Below, in pieces: positions 4,018-20,339 of a stretch of 20,349 nucleotides of DNA. Positions within the stretch are counted from its first letter, which is position 1. Every line of letters starts with the position of its first letter. Made by a program: the position numbers and the translations under genes. Source of the stretch: a virus. Location of the stretch: IMG/VR virus record IMGVR_UViG_3300037165_000025, positions 1 to 20,349 of that record; one strand, written 5' to 3'. The notes beneath the pieces were generated by a model. That model saw only the letters and a list, made by a program, of their open reading frames with translations. It did no database searches and was not told the origin of the DNA.

Positions 4018-4470
4018 TTAGGCAGTTTTTACTTCAAAAACTTTAGGTGCGGCTTGAACTGCAACTTCAGATTCTTGAGCACGTGGTCCAGAACCAGCTG
4101 CGGCAATGCCGGCATAGTTTTGTGGAACTTGTGCGAGTGCGGCAAGATTTTCAAGAACTTCAATTGGCTGCGCTTTAAGGAATACTTCACCGAGTTGGCA
4201 ACGATTAGTCGCTTTCAAATTGGCAATGATTTCGTCCTTACGTTTTTGCATCATATTAAGACTTGCTTTCAAAACTTCGGCAATACCTTCTGGGGCATTA
4301 TCGATGTATTCTTGTGCTGTCAAAGTTTTTGCAGCTTGGGTTTCAACTTTTGTTTCAGCAGCAGGTGTTTCTGTTTTTACTTCAGCGGCAGCGGGTGCTG
4401 CAGTTTCAGTTGTTGCTGGTGCAGCAGCTTTTGGATCAGCAGCGGCAGCTTCGTTTTGTACTTTAGTCAT
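4018..4470 (-). CDS. Nested scaffold protein from an internal start
   Basis: Within the protease-scaffold gene, in the same frame, ATG at 4470 (residue 328, MTKVQNEAAAADPK) is preceded by a perfect AAGGAG with a six-base spacer (AACGAT). This is a better ribosome binding site than the one of the full gene. It would yield a free 150-residue scaffold: an Ala/Pro/Thr/Glu-rich linker, a helical core (YIDNAPEGIAEVLKASLNMM, MQKRKDEIIANLKA, PIEVLENLAALAQV) and a basic-ended tail. The arrangement parallels lambda C/Nu3, where the scaffold is translated in excess of the protease fusion. Expression is inferred, not shown. Confidence 0.65.
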   Translation of the reverse strand: MTKVQNEAAAADPKAAAPATTETAAPAAAEVKTETPAAETKVETQAAKTLTAQEYIDNAPEGIAEVLKASLNMMQKRKDEIIANLKATNRCQLGEVFLKAQPIEVLENLAALAQVPQNYAGIAAAGSGPRAQESEVAVQAAPKVFEVKTA

Positions 4471-5451: not shown

Positions 5452-5472
5452 GGTCTGCCCTGGTCTCTCTGT

Positions 5473-5502
5473 ATTATAATCTTTATTCTAAGATAAAATC
5501 AA
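5473..5502 (-). promoter_or_regulatory. Sigma70-like promoter for the capsid genes
   Basis: On the minus strand TTGATT (5502-5497) and a perfect TATAAT (5478-5473) are separated by 18 bases, placing the start of transcription about 15 bases before the protease-scaffold ATG at 5451. The surrounding sequence is very AT-rich. It would let the protease, scaffold, decoration and capsid genes be transcribed separately from the upstream packaging and fibre genes. Confidence 0.6.
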
Positions 5503-5573
5503 CATAAATTTTCGATAAAGTGAAAATATTTTTAATTTATGCAAACCTGCATCTCGGACGGGAAGTAATAATG

Positions 5574-5972
5574 TTATTTGGCGGCTTTTAGTTTCTTGGG
5601 ATTAGTTGCCTTAATTGGAGGAGCTTCAAATGCAGAGAACGTCATGATATCCTGTGCGGATAAAGAAATCCCGTCGAGATCATCAATTAGTAACGGTTTA
5701 AAATCTACATCAATTTCTGTCTCTAAGAATGCCTTCCAGTCCTTTAAAAAACCTTCAAATTCAGGATCATCTTCCGCCAATGATAAATTGTTACCCGCCT
5801 GTTTTGCGTTATGTTTTTTTAATAACTCAACACGTTTCTCGGCAAGCAATTTAAGATCAACTTCAAGACTCTTAATTAACTGTGCGATTGTTCTTGCTGC
5901 CTTAAACGAACAGTTTACAGTAGAAAGTTTAGAAAGCGTTTGCTCAGCATTTGCAATATTTAATAATTTCAT
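5574..5972 (-). CDS. DUF1617-like small phage protein
   Basis: The 132-residue, charged and mostly helical protein resembles DUF1617 phage proteins: MKLLNIANAEQTLSKL at the start, an AARTIAQLIKSLEVDL helix, a coiled-coil-like LLAEKRVELLKKH, then FEGFLKDWKAFLETEIDVDF followed by PLLIDDLDGISLSAQDIM. Members have no established function that I know; they are commonly encoded among tail or virion genes. A good AGGAG site precedes the ATG. It is the last gene before the internal promoter, so it ends the fibre sub-cluster. Confidence in the family name is modest. Confidence 0.5.
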   Translation of the reverse strand: MKLLNIANAEQTLSKLSTVNCSFKAARTIAQLIKSLEVDLKLLAEKRVELLKKHNAKQAGNNLSLAEDDPEFEGFLKDWKAFLETEIDVDFKPLLIDDLDGISLSAQDIMTFSAFEAPPIKATNPKKLKAAK

Positions 5973-5993
5973 CGGGAACTCCTATTTAGTTAG

Positions 5994-6137
5994 TTATACG
6001 GTTAGTGTTACTGTGCCATCAGTATTGGCAGTATATGCTGGCAATGGTACCAAATCAGCAGCACCATTGGCAGTAAGAAAGGCGTTTAGTTGTCTGGCAG
6101 CTTTATAAAGATTGTCTAATGCAACTTTCGGTTCCAT
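5994..6137 (-). CDS. Small protein (47 aa), unknown, fibre cluster
   Basis: A short ORF starting MEPKVALDNLYKAARQLNAF and ending TDGTVTLTV. AGGA eleven bases upstream of the ATG lies inside the end of the previous small gene, giving a near-contiguous arrangement (two bases between stop and start). The N-terminal half should be a helix with a YKAARQLNAFL face; the C-terminal half is short beta-like sequence. Coding status rests on ribosome binding site, spacing and strand agreement with its neighbours. No family recognised. Confidence 0.5.
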   Translation of the reverse strand: MEPKVALDNLYKAARQLNAFLTANGAADLVPLPAYTANTDGTVTLTV

Positions 6138-6139
6138 GG

Positions 6140-6316
6140 TTATTGTCCTGTTGGAGTTAGAGCTTCTGCTGCCGCTGTTTGATCTGCAAGCAAAGCATTT
6201 TGATATGCTGCAATAGCTGAATTTAATGAGACTACTGCCGCGTCCATTGCGGCAAAAGCCGTAATTGTTGCAGGTGACGCGCCTCTTTGCGGTGAGTTAG
6301 GTGTGTTGATGTTCAT
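6140..6316 (-). CDS. Small Ala-rich protein (58 aa), unknown, fibre cluster
   Basis: A 58-residue ORF beginning MNINTPNSPQRGASPATI and followed by an alanine-rich amphipathic helix (AAMDAAVVSLNSAIAAYQNA) and a short tail. AGGAG with a nine-base spacer precedes the ATG, and the start is three bases after the stop of the 89-residue gene upstream. It sits in a row of three tiny genes behind the large fibre, where phages may encode fibre chaperones or attachment proteins. The role is unknown. Confidence 0.5.
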   Translation of the reverse strand: MNINTPNSPQRGASPATITAFAAMDAAVVSLNSAIAAYQNALLADQTAAAEALTPTGQ

Positions 6317-6319
6317 AGT

Positions 6320-6589
6320 CTATTCTCCTGTTTGAGTTTCAAGTGCTTGTAACGCCGCTACAGCCGGAGCATAAGCGGTGTAAAGGTTTAAATTAGCAGT
6401 CATATTAGCAACTTCTTGAGTTTTTGTCACCACAGCATTTTGCGTTGCCGGAATTAGCTGGACTAGCCATGCGGTCAACTCGCTTTGGGCAAATGTATCG
6501 CTTGCGTTTAGTTGATCGGCATATCCAGCGGTGTAGCCTTTAGATTGCAGCATGGTTTGGATTAGTTGTTTTTCTTGTGTTGATAACAT
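6320..6589 (-). CDS. Small helical protein (89 aa) coupled to the fibre gene
   Basis: I place the start at the ATG at 6589, where it overlaps the fibre stop codon as TAATG, rather than at an in-frame codon at 6652 that lies inside the fibre gene. The product, starting MLSTQEKQLIQTMLQSKGYT, is predicted largely helical with long hydrophobic-polar heptads (AWLVQLIPATQNAVVTKTQE, LNLYTAYAPAVAALQALE). Coupling to the fibre suggests a fibre assembly or attachment role. No named family recognised. Confidence 0.55.
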   Translation of the reverse strand: MLSTQEKQLIQTMLQSKGYTAGYADQLNASDTFAQSELTAWLVQLIPATQNAVVTKTQEVANMTANLNLYTAYAPAVAALQALETQTGE

Positions 6590-9500
6590 TACGCGAGCGC
6601 TCCTATATTCCGCAAGGCTTGAACTACTTGGCCAATAGTGTAACCGCCCCAAGTTGCGGTGTCATTTAAAGTTCCTGATGTGTTGGTAACAAAAGTAGCT
6701 GCCGATATAGCTGTTGTCGGCTGAACAATTGGAGTTGCGTTCCATAAGCTAAGTTTCTGACTGGTTGCTGTTCCGAATTTAGTTCCGGTAGAGGTGCCGA
6801 GAACTATATTTACGGCATTGCCGATTTGTATATTACCAAGCGTTGTACCACTAGAATTTTGACCGAGGAATATATTGCCAGCGGTGCCGGATGGAGAGCC
6901 TGCGCCGGGGATAAAATATATATTTCCACCAGTGTTAGTATAGCCGGTAGAACTTGTCGCTGCACCAGCCGTGAAATTAATATTGCCGCCATTTTTACCT
7001 GTAAAACCAGTTGTAGGTAATGTACCGCTAGCACCAGCAATAAATGTTAGAGATCCACCTTGTCCTGCGTTGACTGTAGAACCACCTGTACCTGTAACAG
7101 AACCGCCAGCACCAGCGGTGAAGGTAAACGAACCGCCCGCGCCACCTGATGTAGTGCTACCGCTTGCCATGACACCAGCACCACCAGCACCTAGTGTTGC
7201 ATTAAGGCTCGATCCAGCGCCACCAGTCGCAGTATTAGCTCCAGACGATGTTCCCTGACCACCAACGGCACCGAGAATTGTTATATTACCGCTTGCGCCG
7301 CCAGTTGCATTAGTTGTGGCAGCGCCGATGCCGATTAAAAATTCTAATTGTCCCGATCCACCGCCGTTTTTACCAGATGCCGCTGCGCCGCCATTACCAG
7401 TAATAAACGCAATCGGCCCACCTGTGCCGCCAAAAGAAGGGCCAGTAGCGCCACTACCACCATCACCGGAAATAAAATTAACCTGACCACCTTGACCCCC
7501 AGCATTTTGAATTACTCCGCCGCTTGCGGTATTCGTTCCAGTTGCGCCACCATTACCACTAGTAAAGAAAACCGAGCCGCCAACTCCGCCTCGGTTAGTA
7601 CTACCTGACCCACCAGCAGCCCGACCACCGTTAGCACCTGTGAAATTTACATCGCCACCCGGGCCGCCCACTACTGGGTCAGAAGTAGTTCCTGTAATGT
7701 TATCCGCACCATTACCAGTAGTGAAATTAATCAGGCCACCTTGATTACCAAAGCCATAATCATTAGGTACAGCACTAGAATTACCAGCAGTAAATCCTAA
7801 ATTTCCGCCTGTGAACCCCCCCGTAAAGCCATTGGAAGCGGTAAGTTGTATATTATCGCCATTACCAACCCCAGAAGTAGCGCTGTATATTGTGTAAGTT
7901 GCCCCACCGCCAGAACTTGCGGGAAAAGCTAGATTGCCTTTTAATGTGAGTTTCTCTATTGAAGTAGCTGTGCCCAAACACAGTCTATGATTCGTACTAT
8001 CATAAAAGAAATTGCTATCATAAGTATAAACACCCGATGCGCCAGCAAAAACTACAGACCCAGTAGTAAACGCCGTACTTGTTCCCGAACCACCATTTGC
8101 TACTGGTAAAATCCCTGTAACGCCCGAAGTTAAACTTATAGATGGGAAAGCTTGCCACGCTGGTACACCGCCAGCATTACCCATTATTTGGCCAGCACTT
8201 CCTGCGAACCCACTAATGTCCTTTAATATTGAGGCATCAACTTCTCCCCCAAACTTTCCGTAAAACTCTGTGTAATAATCCACACCGATTGAAACAACGC
8301 CTCCACTACTTTCTACCCAAGGATTGCCATTTATATATACTACATTCTGGTCGGAACCCGATGGGTTTAGAATAAGTGTTACATTATCAGGGAAAGTTGT
8401 TGGTTTATAAATCGTGAGTGCGCCAGCATTACCATTATATCCGATTGCAATATTGTCACTTGAGTCAAGAACTGAAAGTACTTGATTACCTGTATAAGAG
8501 CTTGATACGCTAAAGACACGTGTATCATCTATATATCCGATACCAGAATTAAGTGAATTTGCTGTGAAGTCGCCGTTGAAATAGGCAGTTGTACCACTTA
8601 AAGTTAAAGCCGTATTTATATTCGCATCAGCTTGTAAAATTAACTGCGATAACCCACCATCGTTATAAGTGCCATAAATATATGTTGAATCACCAGCCCA
8701 CACCATGCCATTGCCATAGTTGGTAGTATCGCCGCTTAGAGAAAAAGCGGTTGCTTCATTACCGCCAGTTGGTGCAAAGCTTGGTATGTCGTAAATGGTT
8801 GCTTTAGTTCCGGTAGTGCTATTATAGGCAACCGTTAATGCACCAGAGCCGTCAATTCTACCATCCGCGGCGGTTAGGTTGATGTTACCTGATGCACCCG
8901 GAGTATCAGTTATGCTGCCGCCGTAGAGATTAACAATCGCGCCTGTCACCCCGGCAAATATCATCTGGGAGTTGTTATCGGAAAAGCCAACATTAAAAAA
9001 CCCGCCAAGGCCACTAACACCACCTTGAAAGAGAATATTACCTGTGGGGTCAACACTAAAACCTACATAGCTGGAAGTAGTTGGTGGAGAACCTGCCGTA
9101 GTCGCCGTTCCCGTGTCAGTATAATATTGTTGCTGGGCATAATTGGTATTGGGTATACTGATTAAAAGGGAATTTGCCCCATACGAACCACTTGTTGTTG
9201 AGCGGTAGATTTTTACCCCACCATCAGTAGAGTAAAACAAGTTCAAAAACATACTGGCTGATTTATTGACAGTATTGGTCGTTATGGACATTTCACCGGA
9301 GGGAAGCGATTCATTCCCCATCGGGTCAAGAACTGTGTAAACGTAATAGTAAGTAGTGTTGGCAGCTAGAGTTCCCCCAGAACCTAAACCGACTCCCCAA
9401 TTAGACCCTTGAGATTGCGAAACATGCTGCGTTAGTGTGTTGCCGAAAAACAGGCTTGTGGAAGTTAAGTTTCCGGCGGAATCTAAAGTGGCGTTGCTTG

Positions 9501-10857
9501 TTCCTGCCAAATTTTTACTAGCATCAACAAATAAAATTGAATTTGCGGCGGCGGTATTAAAAACTGGCGCAACCGTGCTAAATGTTTGTTTTCCAGTGAA
9601 AGTTCCGGCAGTAGCATAATTGAAACCTATTGCACCAGTGCCGGAATTGTATGTAATTGGGGCTACAGCAGAAAATGAAGCAAGAGTAGCTTTGCCGTTA
9701 AAGGTGTTCCAATCGGTTGAGCTTAAATAACCGTTGGTTGATGTAGTGGCTTGCGATATTGAAATAATACCGGTGGAGTTATTATAACCGATAGGAGAAG
9801 TCGCCGATATGGCTGCTCTTGCGCGAGTATTAGTAAACCATAAATTAGTTGGACTTCCGCTTTCAGCAATGTTATCGGTGTTAAGGGTAATTACTCCGGT
9901 AAGGCTATTTACCGAAGTTACTGAATCGGTATTATCTACTTTATTCCAAGCAGTTCCATTATAAATTGCCCAATCCCCGACTTTCCAATCGGTAATTCCA
10001 TCCAAGTTAGTCGAACCTGGTGTAGTGACAATATAATAATAGCCTTTTGTTCCTGTGCCCGATGCTAAACTAGGAGAATTTGAAGTAGCATTCCATGTGC
10101 CTTGATAAGCTACATCCCCGATAACTGATGCCGGTAAATAACTTGTAGATATTTTACCGCCAGAATCAAGAGGTGCAATTCCATTTGCCGCTCCTGATAT
10201 ACTGGCAATAGCGGCGTTAAATCTTGATTGCGTCCAATACAGATTACTATTCTCAGGTACAACACTTGTATCTAATGTTTGAAAGGTCTTATCACCGCGC
10301 CAGTATTGTGAGGTTGTACCCGCAGTTATGGCTGCTTGCTTATTATTGAAAGTATTCCAATCAGTATGGCCTAAGTACCCATCAACTGAGGCACTAGCTT
10401 GCTGGACTCCTAGGTGGGTACCATCCCAAGTTAAAGGTCCGGCAATTACTGCAACAACAGCTGCAACCGCTAAAGCATTGGTGAAATATTTATTGGTAGT
10501 GCCCTCCGCAACCATATCAGTAGTATAATCACCAGATTGGGTAACTACTATACCCGTTCGTGGAACCCCAGCCGGACCAAAACTGCTCACACCTGATCCG
10601 CCACCACCGCCTTGCTGGATTATCTGAATAACCGATGATATGGTATTTTGCAGAGTAATGGTACATTCAGTTGTAGTAACTACTATACCCGTTCGTGGAA
10701 CAAAACTGCTCACACCTGATCCGCCACCACCGCCTTGCTGGATTATCTGAATAACCGATGATATGGTATTTTGCAGAGTAATGGTACATTCAGTTGTAGT
10801 AACTTGAATCGCATTAGTCTGCTCAATAATCTCTAGTTGTGGATCGTCACAAGCCAT
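6589..10857 (-). CDS. Large fibre protein with duplicated N-terminus and glycine-rich repeats
   Basis: A 1422-residue fibre. Residues 19-52 and 60-93 are a duplicated segment (TECTITLQNTISSVIQIIQQ plus GGGGGSGVSSF). Next come shaft motifs common in phage fibres: NKYFTNALAVAAV, LYWTQSRFNAAI and LWFTNTRARAAI, and DGYLGHTDWNTFNNK and NGYLSSTDWNTFNGK. A middle region (about residues 480-1000) is beta-rich, ending with LTSGVTGILPVANGGSG. Residues about 1017-1336 hold some 13 glycine-rich repeats of the form GGxhxFhxGxGG. The C-terminus GTKFGTATSQKLSLWNATPI then VVQALRNIGAL is a tail-end domain shared by many phage fibres. It probably trimerises and contacts the host. It lies between portal and protease genes, so a head-attached fibre is possible. 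The start has an AAAGG site. Confidence 0.8.
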   Translation of the reverse strand: MACDDPQLEIIEQTNAIQVTTTECTITLQNTISSVIQIIQQGGGGGSGVSSFVPRTGIVVTTTECTITLQNTISSVIQIIQQGGGGGSGVSSFGPAGVPRTGIVVTQSGDYTTDMVAEGTTNKYFTNALAVAAVVAVIAGPLTWDGTHLGVQQASASVDGYLGHTDWNTFNNKQAAITAGTTSQYWRGDKTFQTLDTSVVPENSNLYWTQSRFNAAIASISGAANGIAPLDSGGKISTSYLPASVIGDVAYQGTWNATSNSPSLASGTGTKGYYYIVTTPGSTNLDGITDWKVGDWAIYNGTAWNKVDNTDSVTSVNSLTGVITLNTDNIAESGSPTNLWFTNTRARAAISATSPIGYNNSTGIISISQATTSTNGYLSSTDWNTFNGKATLASFSAVAPITYNSGTGAIGFNYATAGTFTGKQTFSTVAPVFNTAAANSILFVDASKNLAGTSNATLDSAGNLTSTSLFFGNTLTQHVSQSQGSNWGVGLGSGGTLAANTTYYYVYTVLDPMGNESLPSGEMSITTNTVNKSASMFLNLFYSTDGGVKIYRSTTSGSYGANSLLISIPNTNYAQQQYYTDTGTATTAGSPPTTSSYVGFSVDPTGNILFQGGVSGLGGFFNVGFSDNNSQMIFAGVTGAIVNLYGGSITDTPGASGNINLTAADGRIDGSGALTVAYNSTTGTKATIYDIPSFAPTGGNEATAFSLSGDTTNYGNGMVWAGDSTYIYGTYNDGGLSQLILQADANINTALTLSGTTAYFNGDFTANSLNSGIGYIDDTRVFSVSSSYTGNQVLSVLDSSDNIAIGYNGNAGALTIYKPTTFPDNVTLILNPSGSDQNVVYINGNPWVESSGGVVSIGVDYYTEFYGKFGGEVDASILKDISGFAGSAGQIMGNAGGVPAWQAFPSISLTSGVTGILPVANGGSGTSTAFTTGSVVFAGASGVYTYDSNFFYDSTNHRLCLGTATSIEKLTLKGNLAFPASSGGGATYTIYSATSGVGNGDNIQLTASNGFTGGFTGGNLGFTAGNSSAVPNDYGFGNQGGLINFTTGNGADNITGTTSDPVVGGPGGDVNFTGANGGRAAGGSGSTNRGGVGGSVFFTSGNGGATGTNTASGGVIQNAGGQGGQVNFISGDGGSGATGPSFGGTGGPIAFITGNGGAAASGKNGGGSGQLEFLIGIGAATTNATGGASGNITILGAVGGQGTSSGANTATGGAGSSLNATLGAGGAGVMASGSTTSGGAGGSFTFTAGAGGSVTGTGGSTVNAGQGGSLTFIAGASGTLPTTGFTGKNGGNINFTAGAATSSTGYTNTGGNIYFIPGAGSPSGTAGNIFLGQNSSGTTLGNIQIGNAVNIVLGTSTGTKFGTATSQKLSLWNATPIVQPTTAISAATFVTNTSGTLNDTATWGGYTIGQVVQALRNIGALA
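6850..7809 (-). repeat. Glycine-rich repeat array within the fibre
   Basis: This part of the fibre gene encodes about 13 imperfect repeats, 17-30 residues each, with consensus GG-x-(V/I/L)-x-F-x-x-G-x-G-G and variable Gly/Ser/Thr/Ala spacers. Examples are GGDVNFTGANGG, GGSVFFTSGNGG, GGQVNFISGDGG, GGPIAFITGNGG and GGSFTFTAGAGG. One beta strand per repeat suggests a stacked beta or polyglycine-type fold. The DNA is correspondingly CCACC/CCGCC-rich on the plus strand. Confidence 0.7.
10541..10803 (-). repeat. Tandem duplication in the fibre N-terminus
   Basis: Two copies, 10541-10675 and 10676-10803. A 26-base stretch (10541-10566 and 10676-10701) and a 102-base stretch (10579-10680 and 10702-10803) appear identical by eye. 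The left copy carries 12 extra bases (10567-10578) that add Gly-Pro-Ala-Gly. The offset is 123 bases over the long block, i.e. 41 codons, so the frame is kept. Confidence 0.85.
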
Positions 10858-10858
10858 T

Positions 10859-11209
10859 TTATACCTTTGGATCTACACGTATGTTGCCTTCCATTCTACG
10901 AACAATTTTACCGCCCGTATCTGTGGTAGTGATATTATATAAATACTTACCCGCAGGTAGTGTATTAGTTAAACTGCCTGGTAGTGTAACAGTAAACTGC
11001 TTATTCGTCGAATCAATAGTAATATTACCACTACCAACGGATACGTTTACTAGATAGCTGGTCGCTGTGCCATTTACTTTTATAGTGAAAGTAATCGCCC
11101 AACCAGTTGGATCAACTGCAACATTATTTGCAAGTACGCCTAACGTGGTTATAAAATCAGCACCCTGATAGATAACAAAGTCATTATAGGTTACGGGAGG
11201 TATTGTCAT
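10859..11209 (-). CDS. BppU-like beta-sandwich virion protein, fibre partner
   Basis: The 116-residue protein has the layout of the N-terminal domain of BppU-type phage baseplate proteins and similar fibre adaptors: VIYQGADFITTLGV, DPTGWAITFTIKVNGT, a GNITIDSTNKQFTVTLP pair of strands, LPAGKYLYNITTTD and a closing RRMEGNIRVDP. All predicted segments are beta strands. Its ATG overlaps the portal stop (ATGA) and it ends one base before the fibre start codon. Such proteins typically link a fibre to the virion, so it may anchor the large fibre. It is a stand-alone domain here. Confidence 0.5.
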   Translation of the reverse strand: MTIPPVTYNDFVIYQGADFITTLGVLANNVAVDPTGWAITFTIKVNGTATSYLVNVSVGSGNITIDSTNKQFTVTLPGSLTNTLPAGKYLYNITTTDTGGKIVRRMEGNIRVDPKV

Positions 11210-12498
11210 ATGCCTGTATCCTCAGTTAGAGTTACCGATTCCACCATAGTAGGCACCGGATCCAATCCCAATATCTTACGTGCCTCAGGTACTGTCATAA
11301 TTCCCGGCTTTTGTTGCATAGCTTTAGTCAGGTTATTTGCTGCCAAACCTGTTTGTGTGCTAGCTTGGGCTATTTCTAAAGGTGTTAGCTGGAATGCATC
11401 TGGCCAAGATATAGTGATATTTAAACCAGCTTTACTTGGTAAAACACCGGCTTCGGTCAAATTGCGAATTAATGGCCATAAAACCATAGGTTCACCGAAA
11501 TTTTTCCGGCGTTCGATAATACGTTCTGCCCAGTTATTACGATCTTGGGAACTCGCAAGTTGTCCCATTTCACTTCCTAACAGGATACGCTGCGGAATTC
11601 CTGTTGCACCCGACATTAGGGAGATAATCATATTAAACACTTGCTGTGGACTAGGTGAGGTAGAGCCTAAATTATTGACTTTTACGCCACGTGTTCTGAT
11701 TACCCGCTGAATATTGTCAATATAATCCTGAACTTCCTCTGTAAGATTCTTTTCATCCTCAGGTGTAAGCTCCATTTCCTTATCAACATCGATTTGCATG
11801 CCGCGATTGGCAGTTAACCAGAAGGTTTCAGCCGTACCACCACATACTTTAAGCAAATCATCGAGTAAGTTCCATACACGTTCAATACGGGGATTGCCGA
11901 ATATAGTATCATTCAAGATATTTTCGGCAATATGGAGCACACGCGAGTAGTGTACATTAAATGGCTGTACATTTATCCCGGCGGTTGGTCTAACTTGATC
12001 AAAAATTGGTTGCACATGATACAGTTCTGGCTGCATATAACGAGAATTACCTGGATCACTCACAATCTTGTTTATTAAGGTTGCACCATAATCATAGGGT
12101 TGGAAGTATAGAACTTTTCGTCCTGGAACAGACCCAGCAGGTAAATCTAATTTAGATGTATTTTCAAAACCCAACAATAATATTGAATAATCACCTAATC
12201 CCGCCATTTTATCGGCACGAGCTATAGCACCCCACAGACCGCGATTAATAACTAAATCATTCCAAGCAGCATCCCAAGTCGCATCACCCGAACTAACAGT
12301 AGGAGGTGATGACCATAATGCGTTAACTGGTGCATCAATAATACGAGAGGCAATATCTTGACGGCGATATCTTGCCCAAGCAGCACGATATAATATAGTA
12401 TGAGTATACCCGAACGTCTTATACAGATCGCGGGTACCTCCAAATAGTTTTCCTAGCATTGATGCCCAGGAAAAACGCTGATTTAAAACACTAGGCAT
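11206..12498 (-). CDS. Portal protein, DUF1073 family
   Basis: The 430-residue product is the ring through which DNA enters the capsid, and the docking site of terminase and connectors. It matches DUF1073-type portals: LYKTFGYTHTILYRAAWARYRRQDIASRIIDAPVNALW (read in two parts), RADKMAGLGDYSILLLGFE, VHYSRVLHIAENIL, the long stem helix region LTPEDEKNLTEEVQDYIDNI, and the signature GIPQRILLGSEMGQLASSQD with NWAERIIERR. A strong AAGGAG lies within the end of the terminase gene, with which it overlaps by eight bases. Databases sometimes give this family an Acb1-related name; nothing here suggests nuclease activity. Confidence 0.85.
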   Translation of the reverse strand: MPSVLNQRFSWASMLGKLFGGTRDLYKTFGYTHTILYRAAWARYRRQDIASRIIDAPVNALWSSPPTVSSGDATWDAAWNDLVINRGLWGAIARADKMAGLGDYSILLLGFENTSKLDLPAGSVPGRKVLYFQPYDYGATLINKIVSDPGNSRYMQPELYHVQPIFDQVRPTAGINVQPFNVHYSRVLHIAENILNDTIFGNPRIERVWNLLDDLLKVCGGTAETFWLTANRGMQIDVDKEMELTPEDEKNLTEEVQDYIDNIQRVIRTRGVKVNNLGSTSPSPQQVFNMIISLMSGATGIPQRILLGSEMGQLASSQDRNNWAERIIERRKNFGEPMVLWPLIRNLTEAGVLPSKAGLNITISWPDAFQLTPLEIAQASTQTGLAANNLTKAMQQKPGIMTVPEARKILGLDPVPTMVESVTLTEDTGI

Positions 12499-13981
12499 TT
12501 AAAGGGCTCCTTCCAAATATTACTCCGGCTTTACCGGTTACAGTTACTTTTTGTCTTCCATCTTGAACAGTTGCAGGTAAACCTCTACCGATGCTGGCAG
12601 TTAAAGTTTTTCTACCTGCAAGCTTAGTATAACCAACGGAGGCGGTATCAATTTGATCGTCGTGCCCCCCACCTGGGAAATCTTTGAACTCGTCAATGAA
12701 TAATTGATTCCAGTGACCTTTTATCAAGTAAATATTTCCTGCCTCCGCTGCGGCGAGGAAAGGTTGGGCCCTTGTTAACTTGCCATCTGTAGAGGGTACA
12801 GCAACTACTTTAAATTCTGGCAATACATTCTTCTGGTAATGCTCAACTAAAGCTTTACCAGAACTTCCCGGCTCTTGTTCGATATAAATTTCGGTTTCAG
12901 TACCATCAGCGATTGCGGTAGTGCGTACGAGCGTTTCAACACCCGATGGACTTAGTCTGTCCCGTACTATATTAAATATGTAAGTAGAGTTCGACAATTT
13001 AATATGGCCCATTAAATTACCAACAGTGTAATCTCCGCCATCCTCTGTTGCAGCTAAATCCCAAATACGTGCTTTTTTAATACGCGTCATATCTGGCATT
13101 TGTTCGGTAATTTTTAACCAAGCAGGATCAGTTAAATCGCCGACATCTGATTTCGGATTTTGCTGATACAAGGAATTAAAGAAGAAAGATCCTGTGGTTT
13201 CTTTGATATCCTTTAAAGTTTGTTCGTTGTAGCGTTCAGGAAATAAAGCCTCACCTGGTACTCTACCCAATGGATCTTCATAATAGCCATTTTCTTTACA
13301 AGGCGCCTCCGCAATTGCGGGTAAGCGAATATATTCCCAATGCCCGCCTGGATTCTCCGCAACTATACGTCCAATAAGATCATCTGGCGCCCATCTTGTG
13401 GCGATAATAATACAAGATCCGCCTGGCTCAATACGAGTATAGGCAACAGTTCTAAACCAGCGCCAAATATCTTCATTGTGCTTCTTAGACATTGCTTCTT
13501 TAATTTCTTTGATATAATCATCGATTAAAAGGACGTTTGCACCTCTACCGGTTATTGGACCACCGATACCGACTGCCGCCATCCCACCGCCCTCAGTAGT
13601 TTTCCAGTTTGCGGCACGAGCTCTATCGGCAGAAAGCCTAACGTTAAGCTTATCTTGGTTATTATCGATAATATCGCGGACATCTTTACCAAAGTCGGCA
13701 GAAAGTTCTGCACCATAAGTTGCAAGGATTGTATTCCAGTTCGGGAACATCTCTAGGCACCAAGCGGTGGTATATTTCGTAATTAATTCGGACTTACCGT
13801 GACGAGGCGGGACACTTATACAAATACGTGCATTGCCTTTTCTAATTGCGGTGGCAATCTTTTGGCTTATATACAGTAAGTGGGGTGCTGCAATCCAACG
13901 AGGATTCAGTTTGTGGGCAAGAGTTGCCGGTGTCAGCTTATATGAATTGCTTAATTGCTTAAGACGGGCTTCATCTAACAC
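12491..13981 (-). CDS. terL: Terminase large subunit
   Basis: The 496-residue motor and nuclease that pumps DNA into the prohead. The ATPase domain shows Walker A VPPRHGKSE (about residues 57-65), Walker B VLLIDDY (150-156) and the coupling motif ATRWAPDD (194-201). The nuclease domain shows RIWDLA with Asp308, IYIEQEPGSSG with Glu368/Glu370, and GGGHDDQIDTAS with Asp441/Asp442. All catalytic acids expected are present. The start is GTG at 13981, preceded by AGGAGG four bases away; an ATG nearby is out of frame. It overlaps the portal gene. Confidence 0.92.
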   Translation of the reverse strand: MLDEARLKQLSNSYKLTPATLAHKLNPRWIAAPHLLYISQKIATAIRKGNARICISVPPRHGKSELITKYTTAWCLEMFPNWNTILATYGAELSADFGKDVRDIIDNNQDKLNVRLSADRARAANWKTTEGGGMAAVGIGGPITGRGANVLLIDDYIKEIKEAMSKKHNEDIWRWFRTVAYTRIEPGGSCIIIATRWAPDDLIGRIVAENPGGHWEYIRLPAIAEAPCKENGYYEDPLGRVPGEALFPERYNEQTLKDIKETTGSFFFNSLYQQNPKSDVGDLTDPAWLKITEQMPDMTRIKKARIWDLAATEDGGDYTVGNLMGHIKLSNSTYIFNIVRDRLSPSGVETLVRTTAIADGTETEIYIEQEPGSSGKALVEHYQKNVLPEFKVVAVPSTDGKLTRAQPFLAAAEAGNIYLIKGHWNQLFIDEFKDFPGGGHDDQIDTASVGYTKLAGRKTLTASIGRGLPATVQDGRQKVTVTGKAGVIFGRSPLNA

Positions 13982-14396: not shown

Positions 14397-15353
14397 TTAC
14401 ACTCCTGTATCTCTGTGGTCTATAACCTCAGAGTTAAAAGTATTAATACGTGGATTCTTATTTTTGTCGACTCGAATAATTAATTCTTGTGCCATTTTCA
14501 TGGTATCAGGATCACTTTCAAGAGCAAGCAATAATTCTTGATCGGAATCACCTTTTGCGGAACCGGCTAGTCCGGCTTTGCTTGCAATAGTACGCAATAT
14601 AACTTCTAATGAGGCATTTGGCGGCAATGAGTTCGGATCTTTACTTGAAGGTACACTCGAACCGAATGGTGTAGCCCCTGAACTGACACGCTGCATTTGC
14701 ATCATAAGCTTCATCAGCTCGATAACCTCTTTAGGCTTGAATTCTTGCTGCGGTCTGCCGGTTTCTAGATCGGTTTCAAACATTTGTTCCAATACTGCAT
14801 CGGCAAAAGCAATATACTTTTTGGATAGTTCATAGTGTTGCTCTTCAACATCCATGATACGTATCTCTTTACGTTTGGCATGGCTGGCGGTGACAAAAAG
14901 ATCGTAAGCCTGAGCACGAGAAATCCAATAGTACAAATGGCAGCAACTGATTAGCTCCTCAGTACTCATGCTTACGATGGTCCTAAGAAGGTGGAGCTGT
15001 CTTACAGGTGCTGCAGCTACTTCCTTCTCTGACGGACGGGGTAAATCAAGATATTGCTTGAAAGCTCGGTATGCTTCCATTGGTTCGTTCTGAAGTTGCC
15101 CCCAAAACGGTTCGGCATTCTCTTGAACAGGGTATCCTTGGGAATAATCTAATGTAGTTTTGGCAATTGCGGTATGATCTGCCTGTTCTTCGGTCGGCAT
15201 TAGACTTAAATTGCCCGGTATAAGGTCTGCGCGGTATATAAACTCAGGAAGGCCAAAATCGTTGATGGGAATCCGGCGGTTTAGGTCTTTCATGACCAAA
15301 GCCTTAGCGCTCATGGGTAGCGCAATGCTATTTTCCGCGACAGTTGTTGCCAT
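14397..15353 (-). CDS. terS: Putative terminase small subunit
   Basis: The 318-residue protein looks like a large small-terminase/DNA-recognition protein. EPFWGQLQNEPMEAYRAFKQYLDLPR, read as an 'EP..AY.AF..YL' segment, is followed by LHLLRTIVSMSTEELISCCHLYYWISRAQAYD, a helix-turn-helix pattern ending in W-x-x-R-A-x-A-Y-D typical of terminase small subunits. A long helix (MDVEEQHYELSKKYIAF) and a Pro/Ser-rich linker follow. The order TerS, DUF6527, TerL, portal supports the call. The ATG at 15353 lacks a Shine-Dalgarno and sits at the predicted transcription start; ATG at 15293 (MKDLNRRIP), with TAAGG eight bases upstream, is a real alternative. Confidence 0.6.
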   Translation of the reverse strand: MATTVAENSIALPMSAKALVMKDLNRRIPINDFGLPEFIYRADLIPGNLSLMPTEEQADHTAIAKTTLDYSQGYPVQENAEPFWGQLQNEPMEAYRAFKQYLDLPRPSEKEVAAAPVRQLHLLRTIVSMSTEELISCCHLYYWISRAQAYDLFVTASHAKRKEIRIMDVEEQHYELSKKYIAFADAVLEQMFETDLETGRPQQEFKPKEVIELMKLMMQMQRVSSGATPFGSSVPSSKDPNSLPPNASLEVILRTIASKAGLAGSAKGDSDQELLLALESDPDTMKMAQELIIRVDKNKNPRINTFNSEVIDHRDTGV

Positions 15354-15359
15354 ACGACC

Positions 15360-15389
15360 ATTATAATATAATTAAGTAAAAATTGTCAA
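15360..15389 (-). promoter_or_regulatory. Consensus sigma70 promoter of the virion operon
   Basis: On the minus strand a perfect TTGACA (15389-15384) and a perfect TATAAT (15365-15360) are 18 bases apart. The expected start of transcription, six to seven bases downstream, falls on the first ATG at 15353. Either the mRNA is leaderless or translation begins at the ATG at 15293, which has a Shine-Dalgarno. Confidence 0.75.
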
Positions 15390-15731: not shown

Positions 15732-15744
15732 AAGAAGGTTAAAT

Positions 15745-16035
15745 ATGAAACGAATATTCAAATATACTCTAGAGGTTGCCGAGGAGCAGGTAATAAATCT
15801 CCCATTCGGTTTTAAGATTCTAAGTATTCAAGTGCAAGCAGGAAAACCTTGCATATGGGTTCTTATAGATGATGCACACGATGGAACAGAGGAAGTGTAT
15901 TTCTATACTATAGGAACCGGACATTCTGCAGATCTCATGCCAAATAACTTTGTAGGAACATACCAATACGGTCCACTAGTATTCCATGTTTTTTATAGGA
16001 ATGGGCAGCAAAGTAATCCTATTCCGAGGAGATAA
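15745..16035 (+). CDS. DUF7352-like phage protein, first gene of the operon
   Basis: I place the start at the ATG at 15745, with AAGAAGG six bases upstream, rather than at the TTG at 15658 that lies in the leader stem. The 96-residue product, starting MKRIFKYTLEVAEEQVINLP, has the pattern of a small phage family (DUF7352): 'IFKY.L......i.LP.g..iL.iq.Q.g.p.iWvL.D', then YTIGTGH, NNFVGTYQYG and LVFHVFY. It is all-beta by eye. No biochemical role is known to me. It is four bases... in practice one base from the next start and heads the operon, so the structured leader controls it first. Confidence 0.65.
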   Translation: MKRIFKYTLEVAEEQVINLPFGFKILSIQVQAGKPCIWVLIDDAHDGTEEVYFYTIGTGHSADLMPNNFVGTYQYGPLVFHVFYRNGQQSNPIPRR

Positions 16036-16036
16036 C

Positions 16037-16297
16037 ATGAACGCAGTAAAAATATTATACGCAGATGGTAGAGTCGAGGATTGCATTAAAAAGCTATCTC
16101 TTGGCCAAATGCAAGAGATTGTTGGCGGCTATATAGAAGTAGTCAAAACCACCGTAAAAAATAGAGCCTTAATAGTCAATGAAGAAGGTAATCTGAAAAA
16201 TCTACCTGAAAATCACAATGCAACAGAATTTGTTCATCCAGATGTTTGGCGTCAAGGTGAAATTAAGGGTAATGCTATTTTGGTGAGGTCAGTGTGA
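16037..16297 (+). CDS. DUF3846-like phage protein
   Basis: The start at 16037 has GAGGAG just upstream (about five bases), and is one base after the previous stop; longer in-frame starts lie inside the previous gene. The 86-residue product begins MNAVKILYADGRVEDCIKKL and contains LGQMQEIVGGYIEVVKT, ALIVNEEGNLKNLPEN, HNATEF and IKGNAILV. 'GyiE.v', 'vNEeGkl..lp.N..At' and a final 'i.GnAil' are the marks of DUF3846, a family spread across phages and mobile elements with unknown function. Confidence 0.7.
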   Translation: MNAVKILYADGRVEDCIKKLSLGQMQEIVGGYIEVVKTTVKNRALIVNEEGNLKNLPENHNATEFVHPDVWRQGEIKGNAILVRSV

Positions 16298-16725
16298 AAG
16301 TACTTGAAAAGGGGCATATTTATAACCTAGAGGTTCGCAAATCTGGCGAACGCGATTCAGGTCAATTACAGCAGCGACTGACATTTATCAACAAGGAGCC
16401 TGGTAATGAGCATAGCGGGACAACTACTCAAGAAGTACTTCGTGTATTGATTGACAGAACTCGTCATTGTGCTAATTGCATGCCGCATAGAAATAATGAG
16501 CAAGCTATTTACCATCTTAGGATGGCATTGATTATGCACGAAGCAAGAGCTTTAGAGCGTAAGTGTGAAAAAGGTGATTATGCGCCTGAGTACGCAACAG
16601 TAGGTACTGACGGACATTTTAGTATATTTGAAAATATGCCAGAAAAACTTGATACTCCCATATTAGATCCGCATCGTAATGATTGGGATCGTGAATGCAA
16701 TCATCTTGTTAAGGAGGAAGTGTAG
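16294..16725 (+). CDS. Acb2/Tad1-hairpin-like protein, possible anti-defence sponge
   Basis: The GTG start at 16294 overlaps the previous stop (GTGTGA). The 143-residue product carries LQQRLTFINKEPGNEHSGTT, TQEVLRVLIDRTRHCANCMP, NNEQAIYHLRMALIMHEARA and LERKCEKG. This matches the pattern of small phage proteins grouped with the Acb2/Tad1 helical-hairpin domain ('Q.I.F..ke.......GTTnEeVL.vLidR......p..eN..Ai..le.AL..l..R...R..rg'). Characterised members bind cyclic dinucleotides (CBASS) or gcADPR (Thoeris). The usual RGVEG ending is replaced by CEKG, two extra cysteines occur at 59 and 62, and about 50 residues follow the hairpin. Homology is by pattern memory; activity is inference. Confidence 0.55.
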   Translation: MKVLEKGHIYNLEVRKSGERDSGQLQQRLTFINKEPGNEHSGTTTQEVLRVLIDRTRHCANCMPHRNNEQAIYHLRMALIMHEARALERKCEKGDYAPEYATVGTDGHFSIFENMPEKLDTPILDPHRNDWDRECNHLVKEEV

Positions 16726-16961
16726 TGGCACATAATAAGAATCTAGTATGTATAGGTAAGGATATTTGGGTTCATCCTAAATGGCTTGTTAGTATAACAC
16801 CTACTACTGAGTATACTCATCCCGATAAAAACAAAGCACCTGTTGAAGTGGTTAGTGGTTCTGTAATTAAGATGATGGATGGCACCCATTATCTTGTTAA
16901 GGGTCAAACACCTAATGAGCTAATTAAGAATACAGATTGGAAATCGTATGAAAGTAGGTAA
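16725..16961 (+). CDS. Small FlbD-like protein, function unknown
   Basis: A GTG start at 16725 overlaps the previous TAG (TAGTG), with a strong AAGGAGG seven to eight bases upstream. The 78-residue product has IWVHPKWLVSITPTT, SVIKMMDGTHYLVKGQTPNE and LIKNT. The pattern 'x-H/N-P-x-x-(L/I)-x-x-I...T-x-I-x-(L/M)-x-x-G-x-x-Y-x-V-x-x-x-x-x-E-(L/V)-I' is like the FlbD/FlgD-type small beta domain found in flagellar operons and also in phage hypotheticals. A flagellar role is unlikely; shared fold is the safer inference. Confidence 0.55.
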   Translation: MAHNKNLVCIGKDIWVHPKWLVSITPTTEYTHPDKNKAPVEVVSGSVIKMMDGTHYLVKGQTPNELIKNTDWKSYESR

Positions 16962-17115
16962 AATTACAATCGTTTTGGAAAAAGTACCTTCAGATTCTAC
17001 ATGCTGGCTGTTACCTGAATATTATTACTTTGCATCCGTAGAACCTGGACATGCCGAGATCGGTTATACGCCTTTGCAAGCGATTAAAAAGCTACTTAAA
17101 AAAGAGAAGATATAA
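16948..17115 (+). CDS. Small protein (55 aa), unknown
   Basis: An ORF filling the space between its neighbours: the ATG at 16948 overlaps the previous gene by 14 bases, and its TAA shares bases with the next ATG (TAATG). The product begins MKVGKITIVLEKVPSDSTCW, continues with an aromatic strand (LLPEYYYFASVEPG) and ends in a basic helix (TPLQAIKKLLKKEKI). The 'beta strand pair plus C-terminal helix' outline is like small phage proteins that adopt an antitoxin-like fold, but I cannot name a family. No clear Shine-Dalgarno; coupling is likely. Confidence 0.5.
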   Translation: MKVGKITIVLEKVPSDSTCWLLPEYYYFASVEPGHAEIGYTPLQAIKKLLKKEKI

Positions 17116-17387
17116 TGACAAAAGATGAAAGCAAACCCGCATCTGTATGGGTGCTGTTAAGTGTGGCGAATAATTACGACCAGCCTGCCGGTGCGTTTGA
17201 AGGTTGGTGGTCTAGGAAGCCTACATTCGATATGCTTCTGGACCTATTCGCAGTTACGACCACCAATGAGAAAGGTGTAATAGCTATTGCAGGATTACTT
17301 AACGGCAACTCTGTGAGATTTCCTTCGGACGATACCGACTATTACTTATCTGAAGTTCCGGAGGGTTCATGGCCGACAGAGAAATAA
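17115..17387 (+). CDS. Small protein (90 aa), unknown
   Basis: The product starts MTKDESKPASVWVLLSVANN, a segment like small phage proteins in which a strand 'vwvl.s..n.YdQp' precedes an acidic or aromatic turn. It continues AGAFEGWWSRKPTFDMLLDL and ends SEVPEGSWPTEK. Tryptophan content is high for its size. It is coupled to both neighbours: TAATG at its start and a 19-base overlap with the deaminase gene at its end. The ribosome binding site is AAAGAGAAG in the tail of the upstream gene. Function unknown. Confidence 0.55.
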   Translation: MTKDESKPASVWVLLSVANNYDQPAGAFEGWWSRKPTFDMLLDLFAVTTTNEKGVIAIAGLLNGNSVRFPSDDTDYYLSEVPEGSWPTEK

Positions 17388-17824
17388 GTATGGAATGGGA
17401 TAAGCGTTTCTTAGAAGTTGCAAAGCTGGTGGCTGAGTGGTCGAAAGATCCTTCTACTAAGGTAGGTGCTGTACTCGTAAATGATGATCGCCGCATTGTG
17501 GGAACTGGTTATAACGGCTTTCCTAAGGGTATTCTAGATACGCACGATAGGTTGAGTAATCGTGAGGTAAAGCTAGAAATGGTTGTACATGCTGAAATAA
17601 ATGCGGTACTGAATTCGGTTGCTAAAACTAAAGATACCATTCTTTACTGTACATTCTTTCCCTGCCCTAAATGTGCTAGCATGCTTATTCAGGCGGGAAT
17701 AAAACGAGTGGTAACCTTACCTAGTCCATCCGACGATAGATACAAAGACCAAAGAAAAATATCTGAGGAAATGTTTAATGAGGTAGGAATTCAAATCAAC
17801 AATAACTATAGAGGAACAATATGA
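17369..17824 (+). CDS. Deoxycytidylate (dCMP) deaminase
   Basis: Converts dCMP to dUMP, feeding dTTP synthesis during phage replication. The zinc-dependent deaminase signature is complete: HAE at residues 74-76 (zinc His and catalytic Glu) and PCPKC at 98-102 (zinc Cys99 and Cys102). DPSTKVGAVLV and GTGYNGFPKG are also typical. At 151 residues it has normal length. I keep the ATG at 17369 because GGAGG lies close upstream, inside the preceding gene. The ATG at 17390 (MEWDKRF) matches the usual family N-terminus better and would avoid overlap, but has only a weak GAGA site. Confidence 0.9.
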   Translation: MADREISMEWDKRFLEVAKLVAEWSKDPSTKVGAVLVNDDRRIVGTGYNGFPKGILDTHDRLSNREVKLEMVVHAEINAVLNSVAKTKDTILYCTFFPCPKCASMLIQAGIKRVVTLPSPSDDRYKDQRKISEEMFNEVGIQINNNYRGTI

Positions 17825-18030
17825 AAGTAGACGAAGCAAAAGTACACGGCAGAATAAATAATGCATTAGTAGAATTGGGTGCGATTAATACTATTACTAA
17901 GAAGGCAACCATAAAAGATAAAGATGTTGAAAAAGAAATCACAGTTCCTGTTGCTTCAGCAGAAGTTATTGGCATGATTTTAGATGCAACAACTAAATTA
18001 AAAGCAGCTCAGGCAATTTTAGAGGCGTAG
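17821..18030 (+). CDS. Small protein (69 aa), unknown
   Basis: Starts MKVDEAKVHGRINNALVELG and overlaps the deaminase stop as ATGA, with GAGGAAC a few bases upstream. The sequence reads as a helix, a short strand-turn with many charges (KKATIKDKDVEKEITVPV) and a C-terminal helix (VIGMILDATTKLKAAQAIL). It directly precedes the second protease gene, seven bases away, so the two are probably cotranslated. No family recognised; it is not obviously a scaffold. Confidence 0.55.
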   Translation: MKVDEAKVHGRINNALVELGAINTITKKATIKDKDVEKEITVPVASAEVIGMILDATTKLKAAQAILEA

Positions 18031-18037
18031 GTCAGCT

Positions 18038-18445
18038 ATGTTATTCACTGGTTATGCATGCGTATTCGGACACGTCGATAATCAGCTTGATATGGTTGTG
18101 CAAGGAGCATTCGAAGGAACTCTCAAAGAACTCGGTGCGCACCCGCTACCGCTATTATGGTCACATGATGAGACAGAACAGATTGGTTGGATAACACACT
18201 TTCGTGAAACCGAATATGGCTTGTATATTGAGGGTGAGATTTGGGAACACACAGTTAGAAATACTACTTTGAGTAAGCGGTTGAAAAGTAAAAAAGTGAA
18301 GGGTTTGAGTATAGGTTATAAGGTGAGAGATTACACGTTAGATATATCCGGTGTGAGAATTATCACTAGGTTAGATCTATACGAAATATCAATAGTGATG
18401 TATCCGGCAAATACTATGGCAACAATAGTTAAGTGCAGTATATGA
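18038..18445 (+). CDS. HK97-type (S78) prohead protease, outside the head cluster
   Basis: The 135-residue product is a compact HK97 family protease. LFTGYACVFGHVDNQLDMVV is the standard start. LLWSHDETEQIGW gives the catalytic His43, VKGLSIGYKV gives Ser91, and LDLYEISIVMYPAN gives Glu116; together these make the His-Ser-Glu triad expected of S78 proteases. The family normally has about 200 residues with a C-terminal extension, so this is close to a bare catalytic core. It lies on the plus strand between a 69-residue and a 61-residue unknown protein, far from the capsid genes, while another protease is fused to the scaffold in the virion operon. Its ribosome binding site is weak (TAGG). Confidence 0.85.
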   Translation: MLFTGYACVFGHVDNQLDMVVQGAFEGTLKELGAHPLPLLWSHDETEQIGWITHFRETEYGLYIEGEIWEHTVRNTTLSKRLKSKKVKGLSIGYKVRDYTLDISGVRIITRLDLYEISIVMYPANTMATIVKCSI

Positions 18446-18627
18446 CCGATAAGCTTGATGAAGTCATACGTGATATGGAACGGCTAGAGAAAGTTGAAAG
18501 GATAATCGGTATGCTGGAAAGAATAAAGTTTAGAAAAGATAGCCCTTCAGGACTTTTTGGTTCACACATTGCTAAGTCTTTGGAGCATCTTGATCAGGCA
18601 AAGAAAGTTCTAATAAGAAGATTATGA
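18442..18627 (+). CDS. Small coiled-coil-like protein (61 aa), unknown
   Basis: I choose the ATG at 18442, which overlaps the protease stop as ATGA; an in-frame GTG at 18433 lies within the protease gene. The product begins MTDKLDEVIRDMERLEKVER and is nearly all charged helix with hydrophobic positions at heptad-like spacing, continuing IIGMLERIKFRKD and ending HLDQAKKVLIRRL. Direct coupling to the S78 protease makes a partner or substrate possible, but nothing in the sequence shows it. Confidence 0.5.
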   Translation: MTDKLDEVIRDMERLEKVERIIGMLERIKFRKDSPSGLFGSHIAKSLEHLDQAKKVLIRRL

Positions 18628-18645
18628 TAACCCACATTTCGACAC

Positions 18646-18673
18646 TTGCTTGAATACTTAACTGCATTATAAT
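18646..18673 (+). promoter_or_regulatory. Possible internal promoter
   Basis: A perfect TATAAT (18668-18673) lies 16 bases after TTGCTT (18646-18651), in the only sizeable gap of this operon, with transcription expected to start near 18680 and an AAAGGAGAG ribosome binding site at 18686-18694. The upstream box matches only half of the consensus. Confidence 0.4.
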
Positions 18674-18696
18674 AACTTAACAACAAAGGAGAGACT

Positions 18697-18893
18697 ATGA
18701 TTACCAAACAACAAGCCGGAACTGATACGCATTGGCGGAGCTTGTTGCAGCGTTGGAGGACAGTGCGGTTAGGTTCGCGCAGATAGAGCAATTTCAAGAG
18801 AAATATCTGGGGAGATTTTATCTATCTGTAACGGCGGTTCACGAAGCTGTTGATAAGGCCATTGCAAAAGCCAAATCACATCTAAAACAATAA
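18697..18893 (+). pseudogene. Small gene split by a frameshift
   Basis: The ATG at 18697 has a strong AAAGGAG site and reads MITKQQAGTD, but its frame ends at TAG after 29 codons. A second frame, open from about 18733 to TAA at 18891, encodes ALAELVAALEDSAVRFAQIE and then FQEKYLGRFYLSVTAVHEAV plus a lysine-rich end. Joining them by a minus-one shift (or one added base) gives a coherent 65-residue helical protein. No slippery heptamer is visible in the window where a shift must occur, so an indel or a sequence error is more likely than programmed frameshifting. Confidence 0.5.
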
Positions 18894-18909
18894 GAACAGG
18901 AATAGGGAT

Positions 18910-19173
18910 ATGAGCGAATGGCAACCGATAGAAACAGCGCCGAAAGATGAAACTGAGGTTTTCTTATGGATACCGGGTGTTTCTAATTATCCAATAGCCG
19001 GACATTACACTAGCGCAGAACGCGTTGAGGAAGATTACGGCGATCCTGAGTATATGGAGGAAGGCTGGTACTTAGGCTATGGCTATCCCGGTGATTTAGG
19101 GGAAGAAACCTACGAACCAACCCACTGGATGCCACTACCTAACCCACCCAAAAGCGAGTCTAATCATGAATAA
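18910..19173 (+). CDS. DUF551 domain protein
   Basis: The 87-residue product is a clear DUF551 member: MSEWQPIETAPKDETEVFLW at the start, then IAGHYTS, a variable acidic middle segment, and the signature PTHWMPLPNPP at the end. Members are common in phages and prophages of Pseudomonadota; they have no known function. An AGGAATAGGG stretch provides the ribosome binding site. It overlaps the next gene by the octamer ATGAATAA. Confidence 0.8.
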   Translation: MSEWQPIETAPKDETEVFLWIPGVSNYPIAGHYTSAERVEEDYGDPEYMEEGWYLGYGYPGDLGEETYEPTHWMPLPNPPKSESNHE

Positions 19174-19375
19174 CAACCACTCGGAATTAATAGTATCTTT
19201 TGGTAAAACTGAAATAGTTACCAATTTTGTTCACCCGCCTATTCCCGACAGAAGATTTGATTACCAAGCTTATCGGGATGGCTATGATGAAGGGAATCTA
19301 ATGGGCTGGGGCGAAACTAAAGATCTGGCAATCGCGGATTTATTAGAACAAGAGTATGAGGCTTTGTATGAATAA
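19166..19375 (+). CDS. Small conserved phage protein (69 aa), unknown
   Basis: The product begins MNNNHSELIVSFGKTEIVTN and contains FVHPPIPDRRFDYQAYRDGY, then EGNLMGWGETKDLAIADLLE. 'HPPIP.R.fDw.A...gy..g...GwG.T..eAiaDL' is a recurring motif of small phage proteins that I recognise but cannot name by function. It overlaps the genes on both sides by eight bases (ATGAATAA), with each start inside the end of its neighbour, so translation should be coupled. Confidence 0.6.
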   Translation: MNNNHSELIVSFGKTEIVTNFVHPPIPDRRFDYQAYRDGYDEGNLMGWGETKDLAIADLLEQEYEALYE

Positions 19376-19811
19376 TAACCAGACAACACAGGCTGAGTAT
19401 CCGGCAATTGAAGCAGTTAAGCGCATACCTATTAGCGATGCCAAAACCTACGCCTTAAAAAATGGACAAGTTCAAGTTTTGATTTTATCTCGCGGTTCTG
19501 ATGGTACAGATCATTGCGTTACATGGGGTAAATCTGTTGAACAGTGCGCCGAAGCTGCTGAAATGGGCAACAGACTCAAAGCAATGTTAAAATGGCCGCA
19601 ACGTTGCCAACAAGAGCCTTCAAGGGTTAAGAATCTCCAAGCTCGGTTAAAACAGGCCGATTTATTGGTGGATGCCGCTAAAGAGGCGCTGAAGATTATT
19701 GATAATGGCTGCACCACAAACGCGACTCAATCAAATAAACAGCGCATTGCTCAGGCATTAAAACAAGCACTAGCAAACTACCAAGCCAATAAGGAACAAA
19801 CAAATGAGTAA
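19368..19811 (+). CDS. Conserved phage protein (147 aa), two-part, unknown
   Basis: I prefer the ATG at 19368 (MNNNQTTQAEY), which has GAGG six bases upstream, over the in-frame ATG at 19356. The first half, AIEAVKRIPISDAKTYALKN then QVQVLILSRGSDGTDHCVTW and GKSVEQCAEAAEMGNRLKAM, resembles a widespread phage domain ('A..iA..ygy.qVii..r......H.tt.G....hc..Aa..g..lk'). The second half is helical, with a charged region LQARLKQADLLVDAAKEALK and a C-terminal helix RIAQALKQALANY common in accessory phage proteins. Function unknown. Confidence 0.55.
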   Translation: MNNNQTTQAEYPAIEAVKRIPISDAKTYALKNGQVQVLILSRGSDGTDHCVTWGKSVEQCAEAAEMGNRLKAMLKWPQRCQQEPSRVKNLQARLKQADLLVDAAKEALKIIDNGCTTNATQSNKQRIAQALKQALANYQANKEQTNE

Positions 19812-20124
19812 TGTGATTGAGAAATGTGCTAGGGCTATTGATAAGGCACTAACTAAAGCTGATAAGTTTGGCGTGCCGGAAAGAGAGGCATGTCAAGAAG
19901 CAGCCAAAGCGTGTTTAGCCGCATTAGCTGATGGCGAATTGGACGGAAACGCGCTTAGCAAAGCGGCCAGAACTTATCATATTGGTAGAACGTCCTATCC
20001 AATGCAAGAAAATGGATATACGGAATTTGATAACAATCGTGCCGAATCTATCGTCCGCGCATATCTTCAAGCACTAACTAAAGGGAGTGGGGGGTATGAG
20101 TCGGGGAATGAGTGTTACTTATAG
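19804..20124 (+). CDS. Small helical phage protein (106 aa), unknown
   Basis: The product begins MSNVIEKCARAIDKALTKAD and includes EREACQEAAKACLAALAD, an alanine-rich helical repeat typical of small phage early proteins, then a Tyr-rich middle (ARTYHIGRTSYPMQENGY) and a second helix (ESIVRAYLQALTKG). It is joined to the upstream gene through ATGAGTAA, the third such eight-base overlap in a row. Its 3' end overlaps the next reading frame by 29 bases. No named family recognised. Confidence 0.5.
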   Translation: MSNVIEKCARAIDKALTKADKFGVPEREACQEAAKACLAALADGELDGNALSKAARTYHIGRTSYPMQENGYTEFDNNRAESIVRAYLQALTKGSGGYESGNECYL

Positions 20125-20339
20125 TTTAGTATGTCCCGAAACTAAAATAAGGCTTTGGGTCGGACAACGGGGAGCTGGCGAAGATATTCCTTGGTTATAT
20201 GAAGGTGAGATAGCTATGAAACAATTAACTGATTTTTTTTAATTTTCACATAGATAAGCCTATCTTATACGTTTCAGATTTCTGGTTTGAAGATAAAGAG
20301 GAATATTATAAGGAATTTGAAACTGAGGTAAAGAAATGA
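20096..20339 (+). pseudogene. Small gene interrupted at a T8 run
   Basis: The ATG at 20096 (MSRGMSVTYSLVCPETKIRL) is read for 48 codons to a stop created right after a run of eight T (20233-20240). Removing one T joins the frame to 32 further codons (NFHIDKPILYVSDFWFEDKE and more) ending at TGA 20337-20339, which overlaps the next ATG as ATGA. The joined 80-residue product is hydrophobic-acidic with aromatic strands. The perfect coupling at the end argues the full frame is or recently was the real gene. GGAGTGGGGGGT precedes the ATG. Confidence 0.55.

Follow-up and report, generated by a model that had tools for sequence, protein, structure and literature searches.

The window analysed here (IMG/VR record IMGVR_UViG_3300037165_000025) is a fragment of viral DNA, 20,349 bases long and classed as linear, and more genes of this phage therefore lie outside the view. 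Positions 18038–18445 of its plus strand contain an ORF of 135 amino acids, counted from the ATG, that matched the S78 (HK97-type) prohead protease family far above the curated cut-offs in the profile search that had been put forward as a test of its identity: 87 bits (E 2e-24) for Pfam PF04586, with a cut-off of 21, and 94.3 bits for the NCBIfam equivalog TIGR01543, with a cut-off of 59. It also matched phrog_80 (head maturation protease; 2.5e-31). The match covered positions 3–136 of the 142 positions of the TIGR01543 model, so the ORF corresponds to the core only. In an alignment with HK97 gp4 and about 90 homologues, H43, S91 and E116 of the ORF, equivalent to H65, S114 and E141 of gp4, were invariant, and the ORF kept every fully invariant column. 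It departs from highly conserved positions at C8, S42, Q48, T58, M121 and Y122; the number of conserved columns at which HK97 gp4 differs is just as large (5/27). The profiles and this alignment bear out the preliminary description of a protease reduced to its catalytic core, with an intact His43-Ser91-Glu116 set. Structure prediction, which had also been recommended, gave a prohead protease fold (AlphaFold2, alignment of 46 rows, pLDDT 95), and a Foldseek search with this model retrieved viral prohead proteases with TM values of up to 0.93 and indicated an assemblin-like fold. The same predicted fold is found in T4 gp21 (TM 0.70) and in the herpesvirus assemblins/proteases (TM ~0.6), which have 12–16% identity to the S78 protein and are all capsid maturation enzymes. 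Assemblin-class cores may require a high local concentration or a partner for activity. A chance ORF at 18038–18445 was ruled out by the profile matches and the structure model. Judged from its sequence, this stretch encodes a genuine S78 catalytic core with an intact triad.

The S78 gene belongs to an accessory operon on the plus strand (15742–20242), in which the genes are small and for the most part overlap. It is preceded by a dCMP deaminase gene (17369–17824, plus strand; PF00383, 2.5e-25; phrog_174, 6.3e-48) and a 69-aa ORF of unassigned function (17821–18030, plus strand), the stop codon of which lies 7 bases upstream of the S78 start. The S78 reading frame opens just five codons ahead of its ATG, and its stop codon overlaps the ATG of a 61-aa ORF, also of unassigned function (18442–18627, plus strand), in an ATGA arrangement that suggests translational coupling. 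With this 7-base gap on one side and the overlap on the other, the gene is tightly set. Its codon usage is native (z −0.85, the other genes ranging from −3.3 to 2.5), with no signal of a recent foreign insertion. Native codon usage, the ATGA overlap and the retention of the invariant residues make recent debris unlikely, and the relic of recombination envisaged in the preliminary description is disfavoured as a recent event. The 61-aa ORF had no match in family (NCBIfam) or phage searches, and no relatives of the 69-aa ORF and no DNA-level relatives of the operon were found. A defence-family search returned only a dCTPase-type match, for the deaminase, and Rfam and tRNA searches yielded nothing informative.

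The head module lies on the minus strand, opposite to the S78 gene, as had been stated. It encodes the terminase small subunit (14397–15353; phrog_6299, 4e-8), the terminase large subunit (12491–13981), the portal protein (11206–12498), a DUF2213 protease fused to the scaffold (4018–5451), a major capsid protein of the DUF6260 type (2328–3350) and a decoration-like protein. The DUF2213 fusion, the presence of which among the capsid genes was correctly recognized from the start (PF09979, E 1.6e-10, 41.6 bits versus a cut-off of 22), is the phage's own head protease. Its residues H68, S135 and D164 are present and are 94–100% conserved among 34 relatives, and nothing in the sequence appears to indicate that this protease is failing. 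An internal ATG at 4470 on the minus strand (codon 328 of the ORF), behind TCTAAGGAGAACGAT (AAGGAG site), probably gives a separately made scaffold. DUF2213 protease-scaffold fusions (PF09979, phrog_760) likewise belong to the head maturation protease class but, unlike the S78 ORF of the same phage, they are fused to the scaffold and conserved in relatives, and the S78 profile gives no match to them. The portal gene is separated from the DUF2213 gene by a 1422-aa fibre-like ORF, for which there was no PHROGs match, and small ORFs (5452–11205); at loci L011 and L012, the corresponding distance is ~390 bases. A near-perfect tandem duplication of 123 bases (99%; 10574–10804), real or an assembly artefact, lies at the start of the fibre-like ORF.

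The S78 and capsid genes had also been described as being under different promoters. This follows from their location on opposite strands and stands to that extent, but the promoter sites themselves are consensus matches only, with 12 in the window versus 14.4 expected in shuffles. One site on the minus strand (15360–15389) is a perfect 12/12 sigma-70 consensus, TTGACA-18-TATAAT, and ends 7 bases before the annotated ATG of the terminase small subunit gene (15353); either the message is leaderless or the true start of this gene lies downstream.

Location between the portal and major capsid genes and the possession of a C-terminal tail are usual, but not strictly defining, features of S78 proteases, and both were present in the HK97 gp4/S78 proteases examined. 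The S78 loci compared came from the relatives that, among the matches listed, resemble the window protein most. Portal and/or capsid genes were found within ~3.5 kb at all of the best 80 viral loci (80/80), and likewise beside the S78 genes of 10 further viral loci obtained in a second alignment search (90/90 in total among the matches listed), whereas the S78 gene of the window has no such neighbours. In 60 phage records sampled along the match list, the names were those of head or capsid proteins wherever a specific name was given. The core was followed by at least 15 residues in all the viral relatives listed, except one cut by the contig end, and the tail had a median length of 59 residues in relatives, versus 0 in the window protein. 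The ORF has profile score, fold and catalytic His-Ser-Glu positions in common with HK97 gp4 and the other S78 proteases (PF04586, TIGR01543), but differs from these HK97-type relatives in consisting of the core alone and in being encoded in an accessory operon, in a phage with another head protease. Elsewhere, S78 genes with no capsid gene detected nearby were observed at L256 (5911–6480), L257 (5944–6480), L301 and L304 (both near 6001–6400), among housekeeping genes on Rickettsiales/Ehrlichia chromosomes; these are perhaps remnants of gene transfer agents (GTAs).

Searches of 50,697 phage records, 72,556 plasmids, IMG/VR and the GTDB representatives revealed no close relative of the S78 protein, the best matches being at 43–46%, and a search of bacterial genomes for exact 8-mers of the protein gave no lead. 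The orphan core is known from one contig, and no orthologue was found. In the inferred trees, the protein had a long branch and was placed, with weak support (90/77 and 81/45), as sister to a Rickettsiaceae clade; as the starred set includes phage rows too, this is at most a tentative grouping with the alphaproteobacterial GTA g4 proteases. Alphaproteobacterial GTA-like proteases (Rickettsiaceae L233 and L249) were among the nearest sequences by identity (40–46%) and, weakly, by tree. These proteins are also short, but they have tails of ~20–40 residues, the window protein having none, and they are encoded on the chromosome, with GTA-type tail genes (TIGR02217, TIGR02218) and a capsid gene of the HK97 type as neighbours. 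Capture of the S78 gene from an alphaproteobacterial HK97-type phage or GTA is, on these comparisons, moderately likely, and most of its divergence may predate the capture. L059, a contig listed as "viral" in IMG/VR, has the same S78 core, without a difference, as L247, a Rickettsiales genome contig carrying terminase, portal, protease, capsid and connector genes, so L059 may represent a prophage or GTA region.

The preliminary description had called for a check on whether the two protease genes are conserved as a pair. We gathered 38 related viral contigs by capsid-protein search. A search for the S78 family covered 39 whole records, made up of 33 of the 38 contigs, five contigs found through DUF2213 and the complete genome of MaInes, a related Brevundimonas phage. 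Nine of the records exceeded 40 kb, and none contained S78 (0/39). DUF2213 was present in 32 of the 39 records, the remainder including short or incomplete ones. S78 was also absent from StAshley, the other related Brevundimonas phage, and from 11 more named phages with DUF2213, and DUF2213 was absent from all 33 S78 records checked. A locally built S78 model, used unfiltered on the stretches analysed from all 38 contigs and on 80 loci surrounding related dCMP deaminase genes, matched the window only. A conserved pair is ruled out: the S78 gene occurred in no sampled relative, and DUF2213 in no sampled S78 record. The view that two protease types in one phage are unusual holds good, as the combination was found nowhere else; the pairing is exceptional within the sample. 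Its absence from the relatives sampled also implies that heads of this kind can be made without S78. Salmonella phage 118970_sal3 was considered as a two-protease precedent and rejected: its two S78 copies score equally, and both reading frames are as long as is usual for a prohead protease, so that neither is an orphan core. No paper was found that speaks of a "second" prohead protease, or of "two", with this meaning, and a terminase-based search of viral contigs provided no lead.

The enzymatic parts of the S78 core are intact, the features associated with head assembly (position, tail and partner capsid) are missing, and another protease is present, which together make a use outside the phage's own head the likeliest. 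We tentatively favour the reading that a captured S78 core is kept as an accessory gene and acts outside the maturation of the phage's own head, on proteins of the host or of another element. An S78 protease would have been captured horizontally, pared down to the bare catalytic domain and retained, and maturation of the capsid would be the task of the DUF2213 protein. As the phage has its own head protease and no sampled relative has S78, the core was probably captured and now serves another purpose. Lacking a C-terminal tail, and with no capsid partner of the HK97 type encoded nearby, it would most likely act free in the cytoplasm, outside the phage's own head assembly. Its target would be a host protein, or the HK97-type head proteins of a resident prophage or GTA, and the outcome would be host take-over, counter-defence or interference. 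We infer the expression and activity of the core, its role outside head assembly and any target. Retention of the invariant residues cannot in itself distinguish a long-kept function from a recent capture that has yet to decay, but the former is favoured by the native codon usage and by the failure to find any close donor. According to a review, the prohead protease of Bas13 interacts with a CBASS sensor (PMC12409349), indicating that such enzymes can matter outside heads. That the core, taken by a phage with a DUF2213-type head from an HK97-type phage or a host GTA, is an unpackaged weapon, causing premature scaffold or capsid cleavage in rival HK97-type prophages or GTAs or blunting a defence that senses prohead proteases, is a conjecture to which we attach rather little probability.

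Two other explanations are credible. The S78 core may be a non-functional or nearly neutral passenger left by recombination, with decay yet to come, as its absence from all sampled relatives, its single occurrence and its divergence at conserved positions would suggest. We consider this possible, but doubtful, given that the open frame is neatly trimmed to the domain, all invariant residues are kept, codon usage is native and the gene overlaps its downstream neighbour; the divergence, moreover, is matched by that of HK97 gp4. The second, that the core helps the maturation of the phage's own head, being co-packaged or cutting a substrate that DUF2213 leaves, accords with the function of the S78 family in capsid maturation and with the making of heads by this phage. 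It seems unlikely, as the gene is not part of the head operon, sampled phages that build a similar head manage without it and the protein, unlike its relatives, has no tail.

A chimeric contig, with the accessory half, including S78, derived from another phage, is very improbable. This junction is seen in no other contig, but the tetranucleotide and codon profiles of the accessory half and the terminase-portal half agree (r 0.857) as well as those of two structural blocks compared with each other (r 0.854), which argues against a chimera, and the S78 gene would in any case remain an orphan core in a non-head operon. Least probable of all is a replacement in progress, with S78 succeeding DUF2213 as the head protease, as the preliminary description had suggested: both types are present on one contig, and prohead protease gene displacement has reportedly been described in other phages by Liu and Mushegian (2004), but H68, S135 and D164 of the DUF2213 protein are intact and conserved in 34 relatives, and the S78 gene is in the wrong operon.

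The protein described here belongs to the S78 family, but its architecture and its genomic setting are new for that family. The prevailing view of prohead proteases is that they are dedicated to assembly and encoded in the head gene cluster. An intact bare core retained by an accessory operon, in a phage with a complete head protease of an unrelated type, would be a rare example of a prohead protease freed from capsid assembly. It provides a small construct for asking what an unpackaged S78 enzyme cleaves, and it links to the report of prohead proteases seen by CBASS immunity (PMC12409349).
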